From positions 1 to 37,097 of the forward strand of contig CALMVK010000310.1 in assembly GCA_937873145.1 (NCBI GenBank): 37,097 nt of DNA, given 5' to 3'. Below the pieces are notes generated by a model that was not told the origin of the DNA, did no database searches, and saw only the letters and a list, made by a program, of their open reading frames with translations. Shown in pieces: positions 4,359 through 10,129 of the stretch (positions are counted from its first letter, which is position 1; each line of letters starts with the position of its first letter). The DNA comes from an uncultured Granulicella sp. Its GTDB lineage: Bacteria > Acidobacteriota > Terriglobia > Terriglobales > Acidobacteriaceae. Made by a program: the position numbers and the translations under genes.

Positions 4359-5444
4359 ATGCCGAATTACCTGATGTACCGGGACGATCTGGAAACGATC
4401 GCTCCCGATGAAACTGAAACCAAGCAGAAAATTGTTGAGTTGATGACCGGGGGAATGGAGTTGGCGCGCCAAAAGTATGGTCGTTCCGTGCGTATCTCGC
4501 ATGCCAAAGCTCACGCTCTGCTGAAGGGCGAGCTTACCGTGCAGGCTGGTCTGCCACGGGAGTTGGCCCAGGGTCTGTTTGCGCAACCCGGCCGGTATGA
4601 GGTTTTGGTCCGGATGGCGCAGCAGCCAGGCGAGCTGCTTGATGATTCGAAGCTTTCAACCGATCGCGGCATGTCGGTGAAGGTATTAGGCGTCAACGGA
4701 TCAAAGCTCGAGGGGCATACGGCGACCACGCAGGATTGGGTCTTCGACGTTGGCAAACAGTTTCTTGCCGGAGGCATGAAAGAGTTTCTGCAGGCATTCA
4801 AGCCGAATGCGGAGATCGCCCCCAAGCTCTCGGAGAGCGTCAAGGGAGCCGTCTCAGCTACGGCGCGAGCAACGAATACTGTACTGAATGCCGTCGGAGT
4901 GAACTCGGAAAAGCTCGCCTTTTACGGTCATCCCATCGTTCATCCGGCCAGTGAGGAGTACTTCTCACAGACGGCGTTTCGCTATGGTAACTACGTCGCC
5001 AAGTTGGGCTTCTTTCCCGTCTCTCCAGGCCTGAAGGCGTTGCAGGATCAGCCCTTCGATCCTCAAACTCCCGATGCTCTGCGGGAGGCGATGAATGCCT
5101 TTTTCAAGAACAATCCAGCCGAGTTCGAGATGCGTGTGCAACTCAACACCGGATTGGACGAGATGTCGATTGAGGATGCGCAGGCAGCGTGGCCGGAGAC
5201 AGAGTCCCAGTATCGGACGGTCGCCAAACTGGTCATCCCCGCGCAAACCGCATGGGATCCTGCGAAGGATGGCTACTATGAAGATCTTTCGTTCTCGCCC
5301 GCCCACTCTCTTGTCGCGCATCGTCCCCTGGGTGGAATCAATCGAGCGCGTCTACTTGCCTACACCATGCTTGCAGCGCGGCGCCTTGCGGATAACGGCA
5401 AGTCGGTCGAGCTGCCTACGAGCCTTGCTGAGGTTCCAGCGTAA
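4359..5444 (+). CDS. Catalase-like heme protein (y4iL-type)
   Basis: The 361-residue protein is related to catalases but is shorter. The distal region ISHAKAHALLKGELTV (near residues 46-61) matches the catalase His-Ala-Lys-Gly segment that carries the distal histidine, and TDRGMSVKVLG (near 109-119) matches the strand after it. Near the end, HSLVAHRPLGGINRARLL matches the catalase HRPLGGINRLR segment. I cannot find the usual R-x-F-x-Y motif that carries the proximal heme tyrosine, so the axial ligand and activity are uncertain. Such proteins are annotated as catalase-like heme proteins and may be peroxidases rather than true catalases. It stands 66 bases before a short-chain dehydrogenase on the same strand. 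Codon use is less C-rich than in gpsA, which could reflect transfer. Confidence 0.75.
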   Translation: MPNYLMYRDDLETIAPDETETKQKIVELMTGGMELARQKYGRSVRISHAKAHALLKGELTVQAGLPRELAQGLFAQPGRYEVLVRMAQQPGELLDDSKLSTDRGMSVKVLGVNGSKLEGHTATTQDWVFDVGKQFLAGGMKEFLQAFKPNAEIAPKLSESVKGAVSATARATNTVLNAVGVNSEKLAFYGHPIVHPASEEYFSQTAFRYGNYVAKLGFFPVSPGLKALQDQPFDPQTPDALREAMNAFFKNNPAEFEMRVQLNTGLDEMSIEDAQAAWPETESQYRTVAKLVIPAQTAWDPAKDGYYEDLSFSPAHSLVAHRPLGGINRARLLAYTMLAARRLADNGKSVELPTSLAEVPA

Positions 5445-5510: not shown

Positions 5511-6407
5511 ATGCCATCCGATCTTTTTACTATGCAGGATCCGCGTTCCCAGTACCCCGGCCCACCGTCGGACGTCGAGCTCCAGTCTGCCCCCGCAACC
5601 CAGCAAGCCATGAGCGAAAAACCTGATTGCGGTGAGTCCTCTTACAAAGGTTCTGGTCGACTCGCCGGCCGTAAGGCGCTACTCACCGGTGCCGACTCTG
5701 GCATTGGTCGCGCTGCTGCCATTGCCTTCGCGCGTGAAGGTGCCGATGTCGCCATCTGCTATCTTCCTGCTGAACAGGAAGACGCGGAAGAGGTAGCCAA
5801 TTACATTCGCGAGGCCGGCCGTAAAGCCGTGCTTCTTCCCGGAGATGTCTCTCATGAAGGCTTCTGCCAGCGTCTGGTTGCCGATGCCATCGCTCAGCTT
5901 GGCGGGCTCGACATCCTGGTCAACAACGCTGGCCGCATGGGAAAGACCGAAGGCCTGCTTGAAACATCCACGGAGCGCTTCGACACTCTGATGAAGACGA
6001 ACGTGTATTCGATCTTCTGGATCACGAAGGCTGCGGTGCCGCACCTCAAACCTGGGGCTTCGATCATCAACACCACCAGCATTCAGGGTTACGACCCTAC
6101 CCCGAGTATCTTCGACTATGCCATGACCAAAGCAGCCATCGCCAATTTCACCAAGGGGCTAAGCGAGCCACTGATGGAAAAGCATGGCATTCGGATCAAT
6201 GCGGTTGCTCCAGGTCCCATCTGGACTCCATTGCAGGAAGCCGACGGCAGCAAAGACAAACTTAAAAAGCTTGGCCAGACGACCTGTTACAAACGACCCG
6301 GTCAGCCGGTTGAACTTGCACCCGTATACGTTCTGCTCGCCTCGCAGGAGTCCAGTTACACCACAGGCGAGATCTATGGCGTCACTGGCGGCATGGGCAT
6401 CGCATAG
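5511..6407 (+). CDS. Short-chain dehydrogenase/reductase, YghA-like
   Basis: This 298-residue NAD(P)-dependent oxidoreductase has the classical SDR fold: TGADSGIGR cofactor motif (59-67), VNNAG (137-141), and the catalytic triad Ser190, Tyr203 and Lys207 in FDYAMTKAA. The roughly 50-residue N-terminal lead, with YPGPPSD and SYKGSGRLAGRKALLTG, is typical of the YghA/glucose-and-ribitol-dehydrogenase-like branch, which is often stress-induced. The start ATG at 5511 is preceded by a strong AAAGGAG ribosome site. The natural substrate is unknown. It lies between the catalase-like gene and the photolyase homologue, so an oxidative or light-stress role is plausible but inferred from context only. 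Confidence 0.85.
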   Translation: MPSDLFTMQDPRSQYPGPPSDVELQSAPATQQAMSEKPDCGESSYKGSGRLAGRKALLTGADSGIGRAAAIAFAREGADVAICYLPAEQEDAEEVANYIREAGRKAVLLPGDVSHEGFCQRLVADAIAQLGGLDILVNNAGRMGKTEGLLETSTERFDTLMKTNVYSIFWITKAAVPHLKPGASIINTTSIQGYDPTPSIFDYAMTKAAIANFTKGLSEPLMEKHGIRINAVAPGPIWTPLQEADGSKDKLKKLGQTTCYKRPGQPVELAPVYVLLASQESSYTTGEIYGVTGGMGIA

Positions 6408-6479: not shown

Positions 6480-7802
6480 ATGATGACCAGTCAAGATCTA
6501 AAGAATTTGCAGGGACGGCAAGCGATTGTGTCGACCCTGCAAACCCTCTTCCCTCATCTCACAGCGTCGGATGTCGCTGTTAGCGCAACACGGGGTGGCC
6601 GTGTAGCAGCGGAAGCCATGCTTGCCGCTGTAAAGCCTCAGAACTACGAGCGCACGCGCAACTTCCTCACTGGCGATGTGACCCACTTATCTGCTTACCT
6701 TCGTCATGGAGTGTTGACCTTGGCGGAGGTACGTGACGATGCTCTACGCCGGGTACGCAACCCCCATGAAGCCGGCAAGCTGATCAACGAGTATGCCTGG
6801 CGAGACTACTGGCAGAGGCTCTACGAGCAGATCGGCGAAGGTATTTGGCAGGATCGCGAAGCCTGGAAGACCGGCTATCCTGCTTCCGCCTACCAGGAGC
6901 AGCTTCCCGCCGACATCCCCGACAGCACTACAACGCTTCGTTGCATCGATAGCTTTACACAAGACTTGCAGCAAACCGGTTACCTGCACAACCATGTACG
7001 GATGTGGTTCGCCGCGTACCTGGTGCATTGGCGAAGAATACGCTGGCAAGCCGGTGCCTACTGGTTTCTTGAGCACCTCATCGATGGCGATCCGGCAAGC
7101 AACAATCTCTCCTGGCAGTGGGTTGCTTCCACCTTCGCCGCCAAGCCGTACTTCTTCAATCGCGAGAACCTCGAGCGCTACACCGACGGAATCTACTGCC
7201 GGAACTGTCCGCACGCCCAGGCACGGACCTGCCCGTTCGAGCACGATTATGAGGCGTTGGAGCAGACCCTCTTTCCCCGTCTTCACATGCCGGTTGAGGC
7301 CAACGCGATGCCTTCCCCGCCTCACCCTTTTATTCCCAACGCCAAGAGGTCCTCGTCCAAGGCCTCTGGCAAACCGTTACTGTGGGTTCACACGGATGCT
7401 CTCAACCCGAAATCACCGATGCTGCTGGCTCATCCAGACAGCTACAGCGTGTTTGTCTGGGATCGGCAGTGGATTGTAGAAAGCGAGATCCGTCTGAAAC
7501 GCCTGGTGTTTCTCGCCGAGTGTCTTCAAGAGATGCCAGGCACGCTTGAGCTTCGTGTCGGTGATCCGGCTGTGGAGGTGCTCGCCGCAAGCCGTGCCGC
7601 CGGAGCCGAGTATGTCCTCGCGCAGCGTACACCCGATCCCCGCCTGCTCGCCGCTTCCACCGAGATTGAGAAGCATCTTCCGGTAGTTTGGTACGATCCG
7701 CCGCCCTTTGTTGAATCGGTACGTGGCTTCGATCTAAAGCGCTTTTCGCGCTACTGGCAACGCGCTCAAAGCTCCGCGATGCAGCTCACCCGCTCGCACT
7801 GA
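6480..7802 (+). CDS. Photolyase/cryptochrome homologue with swapped domain order
   Basis: Residues about 35-235 match the FAD-binding helical domain of DNA photolyases and cryptochromes: LSAYLRHGVL (70-79), WRDYW (107-111), HNHVRMWFAAYLV (170-182), and IDGDPASNNLSWQW (201-214), equivalent to the D-G-D-x-A-x-N...WQW signature. The usual N-terminal alpha/beta (antenna) domain is absent in front. Instead residues about 299-428 look like that domain at the C-terminus. There, LLWVHTDALNPKSPML resembles the WFRRDLRLxDNxAL start, a GDPAVEVL strand follows, and RFSRYWQR resembles the TPFxKxW linker. Cysteines 240, 243 and 251 (C-x2-C-x7-C) follow the FAD domain, with Cys155 near its start, so a metal or Fe-S site is possible. 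Function (CPD or 6-4 repair, or light sensing) cannot be assigned. Two ATG codons stand at 6480 and 6483. Confidence 0.8.
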   Translation: MMTSQDLKNLQGRQAIVSTLQTLFPHLTASDVAVSATRGGRVAAEAMLAAVKPQNYERTRNFLTGDVTHLSAYLRHGVLTLAEVRDDALRRVRNPHEAGKLINEYAWRDYWQRLYEQIGEGIWQDREAWKTGYPASAYQEQLPADIPDSTTTLRCIDSFTQDLQQTGYLHNHVRMWFAAYLVHWRRIRWQAGAYWFLEHLIDGDPASNNLSWQWVASTFAAKPYFFNRENLERYTDGIYCRNCPHAQARTCPFEHDYEALEQTLFPRLHMPVEANAMPSPPHPFIPNAKRSSSKASGKPLLWVHTDALNPKSPMLLAHPDSYSVFVWDRQWIVESEIRLKRLVFLAECLQEMPGTLELRVGDPAVEVLAASRAAGAEYVLAQRTPDPRLLAASTEIEKHLPVVWYDPPPFVESVRGFDLKRFSRYWQRAQSSAMQLTRSH

Positions 7803-8016: not shown

Positions 8017-9693
8017 TTACTGCACCGTGACGTTGATCGTGGCACTCTGCGTGACGGCTCCCGAAGTTGCGTTGACCACGAGATTGGCTGTGCCGGTAGG
8101 CGTGGGTATGACGATTGGAGAAGAGGTGCCACAACCAGTCACCAACGCCATCACAGCGAGAAGCACCAGGCCGCAAGCAGCGCTCAGAAGACCGCAATGC
8201 GACGCAAGTTTCTGGCGGAATCTGCGCCGCAGGCTCAACAGCGAGGCAAATGGAAGCAGCAGAGCAAGCGATGTGCCAGAGCCTACGCCTCGTCCCAAGA
8301 GGAATGGCTTTGCCTGAGCGGTCGCGGCCGTGGTGGTGATCGTCACGGTGCCAAGGCTTACGGCAGTAGAAGAGACGGTGTACTGGTTTGGCGCAAATGT
8401 GCAAGTTGCGCCAACAGGAAGACCGCTGCAACTCAACGCAACCGTACCGCTGAATCCGTTTACGGGTGCCACGCTTAGACCGACGGTCGCCGATGTACCG
8501 GCCTTTACGGTCGTCGCGCTGCTGGCGGAGGTAAAGCCGAAGGTGGGTGTACCACCCGCCACAGTGGCGTTGGAAATGGCTGCGAAGAGGCCGTGCGTTT
8601 CACCCGTGAGTCCAGCCGAGAAATAGACATTGGAGGTGCTACCGCCGCTGACGGAGGATGTTCCGGTGACTGTAGTGCCGCCCGTCAACAAGTCCCAAAG
8701 GCTGGCATAAGCAAGTGACTTGCCAGTGCCGTCCATCAATTGGCCGATGTAGCTGTAGGCCTTGGGGTCATAGACGTTGATCTTGCCGTCGCCGAAGTTG
8801 CCGATCAGCAGATCGTTGCTGTAAACGCCAAAGTTTGCAGGAGCGAAGGCGATGCCCCAGGGTGCGTTGAGGTTTGCGCCGGTCGCGACCCGGCTGACAA
8901 ACGTTCCGGTTGTGTCGAAGACGTCGACCACACCGGAACCGGGGGCGACTAGTTGCCGATAGGGTGGTGTGGTGCCGCTATGCTGGGCATAGGCAACAAA
9001 GATCTGTGTACCCAGAATGTGAATGGAATAAGGGTAGTAGCCGGAGGGCAAGTTGGGATCGGTAAAGGATCCGGCCAGCTTGGCAGGCTGGTACGAGGAG
9101 TTGTACACCTCTACCGCGCCGGAGCTGAAGTTGGGTGCGAGCAGGAAGCTGGCCGCGGTTGTGTTGAGCAGCGCAAGCCCTGTATACGAGGCACCGGTGC
9201 TGCTGTTGTTAACGACGATCTGAGCGACAGAACCGGCCGTTCCAAGCTTACCGTTCCAGCCCGAGATGGTGCCGTCCAGGGTGGAGAAAAAGAAGTTTGG
9301 GGCCGCGCCGTTTGGTAACAGAAATCCAGTGGAGCCTCCGGTCGTTACCGATCCTGCAGGCAAACCGGCCATGGTGGGTTGCGATGCTAAGGGCACCGTC
9401 ACCTTGAAAGCAGTGATGCCTGTGACCGGTAAAACAAAATTCAGGCCGCTGCCCTGCGCGCTGATCCACCAGTTGGGGCTTGCGGAAATACCCCAAGGAT
9501 TGATGAAGGCTGGGTCCATGGTCTGCGCGGCAACGGAGCCGTCCGAGACGATATTATTGACCGTAAAAGCCTGTGCATGAACCTGCACCGCCGACCCTGC
9601 ACTTACCGCACCAAGACATACAGCCATAAAGACATTGTGCCGCAAGGACCCTATCGCCGCTCTAGCTCGATCCATCAGTGTTTGCTTTTGCAT
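8017..9693 (-). CDS. Secreted TIGR03118-like beta-propeller protein with Ig-like C-terminal region
   Basis: The start chosen is the ATG at 9693, which gives 558 residues beginning MQKQTLMDRARAAIG and has GGAGAAGAGGG upstream. A longer reading from 9741 adds 16 residues and has no better ribosome site. A signal peptide ending near VQVHAQA precedes the mature start FTVNNIVSDG. The segment with DPAFINPWGISASPNWWIS and SGWNG is the pattern of the TIGR03118 family, a propeller of unknown function. A Ser/Thr/Gly-rich Ig-like region follows (VGLSVAPVNGFSGTVALSC). The last 110 residues hold two hydrophobic segments, the second reading LLAVMALVTGCG, then a short beta-rich tail. Expected location is the cell surface or periplasm. 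The family is reasonably clear; the role is unknown. Confidence 0.75.
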   Translation of the reverse strand: MQKQTLMDRARAAIGSLRHNVFMAVCLGAVSAGSAVQVHAQAFTVNNIVSDGSVAAQTMDPAFINPWGISASPNWWISAQGSGLNFVLPVTGITAFKVTVPLASQPTMAGLPAGSVTTGGSTGFLLPNGAAPNFFFSTLDGTISGWNGKLGTAGSVAQIVVNNSSTGASYTGLALLNTTAASFLLAPNFSSGAVEVYNSSYQPAKLAGSFTDPNLPSGYYPYSIHILGTQIFVAYAQHSGTTPPYRQLVAPGSGVVDVFDTTGTFVSRVATGANLNAPWGIAFAPANFGVYSNDLLIGNFGDGKINVYDPKAYSYIGQLMDGTGKSLAYASLWDLLTGGTTVTGTSSVSGGSTSNVYFSAGLTGETHGLFAAISNATVAGGTPTFGFTSASSATTVKAGTSATVGLSVAPVNGFSGTVALSCSGLPVGATCTFAPNQYTVSSTAVSLGTVTITTTAATAQAKPFLLGRGVGSGTSLALLLPFASLLSLRRRFRQKLASHCGLLSAACGLVLLAVMALVTGCGTSSPIVIPTPTGTANLVVNATSGAVTQSATINVTVQ

Positions 9694-10129
9694 AGTGACC
9701 CTCTTCTCCGCCAGGGCGGAAGCCATCTCACCGCGATGCATCTGCAGTTAGCAATAGCCTAGGGTGAAGCTTCGCCGTTGATGTCAAGCAATTGTCACGG
9801 ACATATCATTTGTTGTGAGACAGTGTAGCGGTATCTACGGATCGCTAGACCATGGCCCCAGCTCATCTTGCCGATGTCTAATGAAGCTGCGGTTAGAGCA
9901 GGTCCTCGACGGATCCTCCGTACGACTTCGTGACTTTTAATGATTCAGCGCGGTCTCCATCGCCGGTCTTCTCCTTGGCGGCAGATCCGGCTTTGTCGTC
10001 CTCGCGGCGCCGCTTGTCTTCGGTCAACTCCTCGCCTCCGTTCTCCTACGCCCTCATGCGCGTTTTTCAGAAGTTGTGCATCCTGCCTTCAGTCAGGTAC
10101 TGTACTCCCGTTTGCTCAGGAGTCTTATC
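9694..10129. other. Intergenic region between divergent genes, no supported gene
   Basis: These 436 bases separate the divergent TIGR03118-like and Tat-signal genes, so promoters for both should be here. One plus-strand frame is open from 9944 to 10129 and runs into the next gene. It encodes a hydrophobic stretch (SIAGLLLGGRSGFVVLAAPL) without an ATG, and may be a relic or chance. I cannot place a promoter with confidence. Confidence 0.4.

Follow-up and report, generated by a model that had tools for sequence, protein, structure and literature searches.

The locus and the order of its domains

The window, that is the whole stretch of 37,097 nucleotides that was analysed, carries a soil acidobacterium gene (ORF 6480-7802, + strand) that starts with ATG and encodes a protein of 440 aa. 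This protein opens with a photolyase FAD domain (aa ~1-270), which is followed by the alpha/beta antenna domain of a photolyase (aa ~297-428). The names used here are those of the published phr4 and phr5 genes and of their fused form, phr6. The features are as follows.

5511..6407, + (same strand as 6480-7802): short-chain dehydrogenase (SDR) gene directly upstream (Pfam adh_short_C2, 4.7e-58)
6480..7802, +: Phr6-type inverted photolyase homologue, 440 aa (ORF; full-length orthologues in 3 of 60 relatives; AlphaFold2 pLDDT 92.9, pTM 0.92)
6480..7289, +: catalytic (FAD) domain at the N-terminus, aa 1-270; counterpart of the stand-alone Phr4 or short photolyase-like protein (Pfam FAD_binding_7, 3.2e-20; VIA-align; stand-alone homologues)
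6942..6944, +: Cys155, first predicted [4Fe-4S] ligand (conserved in 119 of 119; aligned with the first PhrB-type ligand)
7197..7232, +: Cys240-x2-Cys243-x7-Cys251, the other three predicted [4Fe-4S] ligands (conservation; aligned with PhrB-type ligands)
7290..7370, +: linker of about 27-30 aa that joins the two halves (least confident part of the model; gap between profile matches)
7371..7784, +: antenna-type alpha/beta domain at the C-terminus, aa ~298-435; counterpart of the stand-alone Phr5 (Phr5-type profile, 187 bits; VIA-align; hhalign)

The stop-to-stop frame around the ORF has just 442 codons, which rules out a start further upstream and with it an antenna domain concealed ahead of the FAD domain. 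Pfam FAD_binding_7 matches aa 103-225 and photolyases of the PDB match aa ~54-227 in a sequence search, while Pfam DNA_photolyase at aa 336-400 falls below its cut-off (16.2 bits vs 26.6). The classical class I/III layout, with the antenna N-terminal to the FAD domain, is not that of the 440-aa protein. Three of 60 related genomes, each from the same genus as the window, have an orthologue that matches over its full length with the domains in this order and 61-70% identity, which excludes an assembly artefact. The gene is patchy within this genus, being present in 4 of its 37 genomes in that search. Three weaker matches from the same search are antenna-first photolyases of 470-535 aa, as judged from their translations.

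The AlphaFold2 model was built on a 104-row alignment of fused, Phr4-type and Phr5-type sequences, and its confidence is lowest in the linker (pLDDT about 60 at aa 271-290). When aa 1-276 were compared with known structures using VIA-align, Z scores of up to 17.6 were obtained and 49 of the 50 rows shown are photolyases or cryptochromes, the sole exception being 7pub_Ff (Z 14.9). An earlier note on this DNA had placed the FAD domain before the antenna domain, and this order is borne out by Pfam, the AlphaFold2 model, VIA-align, hhalign and the absence of an upstream frame. Its premise that all known photolyases start with the antenna domain is wrong, the reversed order having already been published (PMC9426592 and PMC13274461, both in part).

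The gene most probably encodes a two-domain photolyase of inverted order that belongs to the Phr4/Phr5/Phr6 kind and arose when two neighbouring genes fused in frame, one for a short FAD-domain protein and the other for a separate antenna-domain protein. In relatives these two proteins probably form one enzyme. A probability of roughly 0.7 is given to this reading. It is built upon the computed domain order and folds, the homology of both halves, the fusion history, the Fe-S ligand set, the active-site residues and the co-occurrence of the halves.

The window genome has two other photolyases, making three different types in one genome. One is an antenna-first photolyase of 473 aa (G000:C147; L010:655-2076 -), which by its look is presumably class II, and the other is a separate PhrB-type protein with Pfam DPRP (G000:C274; L178:511-2265 -). 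Two genes upstream of the ORF, a 361-aa protein (4359-5444 +) has no Pfam or NCBIfam match at E <= 0.001; we take it to be catalase-related from its appearance. Downstream, a 574-aa protein (8017-9741 -) has a TIGR03118 domain and a putative C-terminal lipo-anchoring domain.

Cysteines, active site and predicted substrate

The C-x2-C-x7-C motif that the earlier note had proposed as a metal or Fe-S site was placed correctly (C240, C243, C251), although a fourth invariant cysteine, C155, had been overlooked. Among the 119 distinct sequences from loci L001-L171, C155 is present in 119 and each of the other three in 118. All four align with C381, C469, C472 and C485 (L172) of the PhrB-type proteins (hhalign 97%, four sequences, from 4 of 7 PhrB-type loci). 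This pattern suggests that the cysteine set of the 440-aa protein probably holds an Fe-S cluster. In a wider set of 140 sequences over 150 bits, outside which most NewPHLs fall, all four cysteines are found in 132. The eight exceptions are L027, L189 (broken frame), L190, L191, L214, L215, L216 and a fragment in L172. Of these, L027 (G294) keeps only C155 and L190 (G593) has none of the four; both are split pairs that retain the CPD-type active-site residues and the second gene.

Conservation extends to the active site, with E104, W107, N171, W189 and W214 in 118-119 of the 119 sequences and M175 in 116. By alignment these six fall on E. coli E274, W277, N341, W359, W384 and M345, respectively, which, apart from W359 of the Trp chain, we take to be active-site residues of the photolyase. 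At the N171 position the inverted family has Asn in 119 of 119 (GYLHNHVRM) and the PhrB-type proteins have His (GFAHHIQRL), for which a catalytic role is assumed here. Asn171 and Met175 make up a CPD-type pair. According to the titles of PDB entries 3cvw (H365N) and 3cvx (H369M), the two His of the Drosophila (6-4) enzyme were mutated to Asn and Met.

The biological evidence on this family comes from cyanobacteria and from E. coli. Disruption of the cyanobacterial phr4 lowers survival after UV-C, and phr4/phr5 protects E. coli after UV-C in a manner that is not significantly light-dependent, with no UV-B effect in either host, Synechococcus or E. coli (PMC9426592, in part). Light-independent protection against UV-C together with no UV-B effect does not fit a simple photolyase. 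Since the protection is without significant light dependence, photolyase activity of the Phr4/Phr5/Phr6 family is not proven by PMC9426592.

With Asn at N171 and the E. coli-type residues kept, repair of CPD rather than of (6-4) photoproducts would be expected, contrary to PMC9426592. Haney et al. suggested from the Fe-S ligands that Phr4/5 and Phr6 are (6-4) photolyases, and in this respect the alignment of the four cysteines with those of PhrB-type proteins is in agreement, as is the harm that loss of phr4 does to Synechococcus after UV-C and not UV-B (PMC9426592, in part). The active site argues otherwise, having Asn in place of the PhrB-type His in 119 of 119 sequences and Met175 in 116, and these correspond to the substitutions named in the 3cvw and 3cvx titles. 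The window genome, moreover, already carries a PhrB-type protein. On the active site, (6-4) specificity is judged the less likely of the two and is considered improbable.

Slightly less probable again is that the protein serves as a flavoprotein sensor or confers tolerance of DNA damage independently of light, with no light-driven repair. This would account for the UV-C protection of E. coli by phr4/phr5, for which light and dark did not differ significantly (PMC9426592, in part). It sits poorly with the retention of the active-site E, W, N, M and W and of two residues of the Trp chain in nearly all members, and with the ordinary photolyase gene that comes directly after the pair in G164 and G278.

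As an inverted CPD-type photolyase, the protein would bind FAD in its FAD domain, and this FAD would be photoreduced through a W212-W189 chain. UV dimers, most likely cyclobutane dimers, would then be split by electron transfer. The [4Fe-4S] cluster would be structural. The C-terminal domain would pack on the FAD domain in the way the usual N-terminal one does, and might close the FAD site or feed it, whether or not an antenna pigment is bound.

The antenna half, split genes and fusion

Structure searches with the C-terminal domain used an earlier, poor model (4-row alignment, pLDDT 52.5), of which this domain was the searchable piece. Using VIA-align, aa 297-410 match residues 1-128 of CryB (3zxs) with Z 10.1 and rmsd 2.4 A over 111 residues, and residues 2-133 of PhrB (4dja) with Z 9.6. 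Photolyases and cryptochromes fill the top 25 rows (Z 8.3 to 10.1), with alignments that begin close to the N-terminus of these proteins, and the best non-photolyase structure is a universal stress protein (Z 8.3). Foldseek with the same model found no match for the domain at E <= 0.001. In profile-profile comparison by hhalign, five classical photolyase N-domains against 52 diverse Phr5-type domains give 95.8% over 111 columns, where ten column shuffles give at most 3.5%, and the PhrB-type N-parts give 87.5%. The Phr5-type profile scores 187 bits on the C-terminal domain of the 440-aa protein. Its sequence matches in the PDB are weak (best E 0.0047), with five of the six being photolyases or cryptochromes, and Pfam DNA_photolyase is found at E <= 0.1 in 8 of 15 Phr5-type family members (best 0.0002).

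By fold and by profile-profile comparison, the C-terminal segment is a photolyase antenna domain. The identity that the earlier note had proposed from pattern is thereby confirmed, and its reading of RFSRYWQR as the linker-like end of the domain stands. The structure prediction has a Rossmann-like antenna fold in this segment, and no unrelated C-terminus was encountered in the homologue search. An unrelated Rossmann-type domain, for example a universal stress protein, of which there are also some in the Foldseek list, was rejected as extremely improbable on the top VIA-align rows and the hhalign value of 95.8%, with the weak PDB and the Pfam matches on the same side.

In relatives of the window genome the two halves are generally encoded separately. 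Among 299 genomes of the window's class, the FAD half is present in 18 and the antenna half in the same 18. In 17 of these, all but the window genome, the FAD half stands alone and is followed by a separate frame for the C-terminal half. The stand-alone FAD-half homologues are 55-62% identical. At all 17 acidobacterial split loci (L011-L027) the second gene has a start codon within the end of the first, and the two overlap by 4 nt at 16 loci and by 8 nt at the remaining one. L011, L017 and G164 have an SDR gene ahead of phr4, as is also seen upstream of ORF 6480-7802. In L028 and L031 (G164 and G278) phr4 and phr5 are followed directly by an ordinary photolyase gene, with overlapping frames.

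A scan of bacterial genomes was also conducted. Its best 80 named loci include 2 fused ones and 45 in which the second half is a separate gene downstream on the same strand; the other 33 have none there, seven of these last having less than 1.5 kb of downstream sequence. For all 33, a second half is present somewhere in the genome (36 of 36 genomes searched were positive, two with fragments). It was also found in all eight further genomes, mostly of Chloroflexota (8/8; G366 is also among the 36). In 292 cyanobacterial genomes around Microcoleus, the FAD half is in 58 and the antenna half is in the same 58 (Fisher 1e-62, kinship ignored), using for the Phr4-type a cut of 290 bits that was set after viewing the list, at a gap from 292.6 to 213.9 bits. 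For this sample as for the 299 genomes, that the searches for the two halves covered the same genomes was judged from equal totals and the listed genome handles, genomes without a match being listed in part. The second half is downstream within 3.5 kb, or in the same frame (G634), in 40 of the 58; in 10 a single contig carries both halves at a distance of over 0.4 Mb, and in 8 they are on different contigs.

This co-occurrence is new here: the 58 genomes of 292, and the 18 of 299, that have one half also have the other, and in 10 of the 58 they are over 0.4 Mb apart. The short photolyase-like FAD half thus appears, from the genomes searched, normally to have an antenna partner. That the halves occur together even when far apart argues that the 'short' photolyases are half of a two-protein enzyme.

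Fused genes are also found on Deinococcus plasmids in three strains, where they are annotated merely as 'FAD-binding domain-containing protein', and a fourth strain has a pair overlapping by 4 nt. The linker between the profile matches is 30 aa in the window protein and 30-117 aa among the fused forms. The earlier note had called the protein circularly permuted or re-fused, and it is the second of these that the two-gene relatives support. Circular permutation of an ordinary one-gene photolyase would give this domain order, but it was rejected as highly improbable because most of the relatives examined carry the halves as separate genes, in some cases far apart, the fusions are scattered on the tree and the linker varies in length.

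A tree of 58 FAD domains requires two changes between split and fused states, and its well-supported branches force two. With support of 100/99 it separates three classical photolyases from all the fused and split members together with L191 and three NewPHLs of the Prochlorococcus type, although its bootstrap had not settled and the order within the inverted group is weakly resolved. Here the FAD domain of the 440-aa protein groups with cyanobacterial members that are called Phr4/Phr6 on domain order, cysteine set and phylum. In a 45-row analysis that also took in Deinococcus and another fused form from cyanobacteria, the best tree has four changes, while well-supported branches force only two. 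Both trees are of chosen subsets of loci and many of their inner branches are weak; the split Deinococcus L213 is a long branch. A single clade of all fused forms, from acidobacteria, Deinococcus and cyanobacteria, was rejected in the 45-row tree (p-AU 0.024), and one event for the acidobacterial and Deinococcus fusions is compatible with it (p-AU 0.357). By this test the acidobacterial fusion is independent of the cyanobacterial one, and it may share its origin with that of Deinococcus.

One locus, L064, is from a MAG labelled Tatlockia sp. (Legionellaceae) and lies next to Nostocales in the 58-row tree. Its 'phylum' sample consists for the most part of genomes that are also in the Microcoleus sample, and the MAG is probably a mislabelled cyanobacterial bin.

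Ancestry and comparison with known systems

NewPHLs, with their inverted domain order, were reportedly described by Emmerich et al. in 2020, and the relationship of their C-terminal Z-domain to the antenna half was investigated using hhalign. Against the Phr5-type domains, the Z-domains of the group made up of Persicobacter and G393 give 94.3% (at most 1.0% in 20 column shuffles) and all seven non-Prochlorococcus Z-domain sequences give 93.8% (shuffles at most 0.4%). The four alphaproteobacterial NewPHLs alone are weak at 38.8% (shuffles at most 1.0%), the Prochlorococcus Z-domains give 0.3% and all Z-domains pooled give 3.0%. Comparison with the Persicobacter and G393 Z-domains gave 0.3% for the alphaproteobacterial Z-domains and likewise 0.3% for the classical N-domains.

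The Fe-S cysteines have been lost from the NewPHL-like proteins that Persicobacter and G393 encode, whose C-terminal domain is similar to Phr5. Those of L191 (G393), L214 and L215, similarly NewPHL-like and without these cysteines, have a Phr5-resembling C-domain ending in FSQFW, FFAYW or FFAFW. It is possible that these three are intermediate to the Z-domain, which may itself be a decayed antenna domain.

Tentatively, and with chances that fall a little short of even, the inverted photolyases could all be one old and widespread two-subunit family, in which the short FAD protein always acts together with a separately encoded antenna protein, fused behind it at least twice, and the NewPHL Z-domain descends by decay from that antenna domain. 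Antenna-less SPLs have been suggested as possible ancestors of the photolyase/cryptochrome family (PMC9649867 and PMC9498864, both in part), an idea on which the co-occurrence of the halves bears. If the single-family history is true, the SPLs and NewPHLs proposed as ancestral antenna-less models would be neither antenna-less nor primitive.

In a search of the open-access literature no paper came up on photolyases with reversed order in acidobacteria or Deinococcus, Deinococcus not having been searched by name and subscription papers being mostly outside its range. The protein is nevertheless a Phr6-type acidobacterial member of a kind already in print, and a claim of novelty for it fails. The analysis adds that the fusion is independent, that the distribution is wide and that the two genes co-occur, along with an argument on substrate and ancestry. 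Reversed-order photolyases in fused form, previously described in picocyanobacteria, now have members in acidobacteria and Deinococcus as well, and the range of the split pair now takes in acidobacteria, Chloroflexota and many filamentous cyanobacteria. A repair-type enzyme is thus seen to move between two genes and one, in a fixed order that is not that of the textbooks.

Short photolyase-like proteins (SPL) are said to go back to Xu et al. in 2021. They have been reported in several papers (PMC9649867, PMC9498864 and PMC9178010, all in part) and lack the alpha/beta domain (PMC9649867, in part). The short FAD domain is common to them and to the 440-aa protein, which differs from SPLs as described in that an alpha/beta domain is fused behind (aa 297-428), this being a separate gene in the relatives of its FAD half. 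SPL and Phr4 are presumably the same group.

The NewPHLs, cited as inverted (PMC13274461, in part) and also described as NewPHL or Phr7 (PMC9426592, in part), are alike in having the FAD domain first and a second domain behind, and the one that was scored (Ruegeria) has a CPD-type active site. They are without the Fe-S cysteines (PMC9426592, in part); the C-x2-C...C group is likewise missing from the NewPHL-type sequences inspected, whereas the 440-aa protein has all four cysteines. The C-terminal Z-domain of the NewPHLs is also far more divergent.

With the PhrB-type FeS-BCP (6-4) photolyases (4dja, 3zxs) the protein shares the four aligned cysteines and the fold of both domains. It differs from them in that their antenna domain is N-terminal and they have His at the N171 position, and the PhrB-like N-terminal domain (Pfam DPRP) has no match in the 440-aa protein.

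The closest known systems are in marine picocyanobacteria, where in a study of 81 genomes phr4 and phr5 occur as two genes, or fused as phr6, in reverse domain order (Haney et al. 2022 mBio, PMC9426592, in part). Phr4 and Phr5 were suggested to be a heterodimer in 2012 (PMC3441193, in part), and Nostoc punctiforme has already been noted for the split pair (PMC9426592, in part). The Phr6 or Phr4 plus Phr5 of marine Synechococcus and Cyanobium have in common with the present protein the FAD domain first and a photolyase domain second, fused or as two genes. For Phr4 of strain RS9916 the Fe-S residues are C169, C254, C257 and C263 (PMC9426592, in part). The first two steps between cysteines, of 85 and 3 residues, are the same as here (C155, C240, C243, C251), but the last spacing is C-x7-C in the 440-aa protein and C-x5-C in RS9916 Phr4. 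Compared with the cyanobacterial Phr4/Phr6, the acidobacterial protein belongs to another phylum and has a separate fusion with a linker of about 30 aa.
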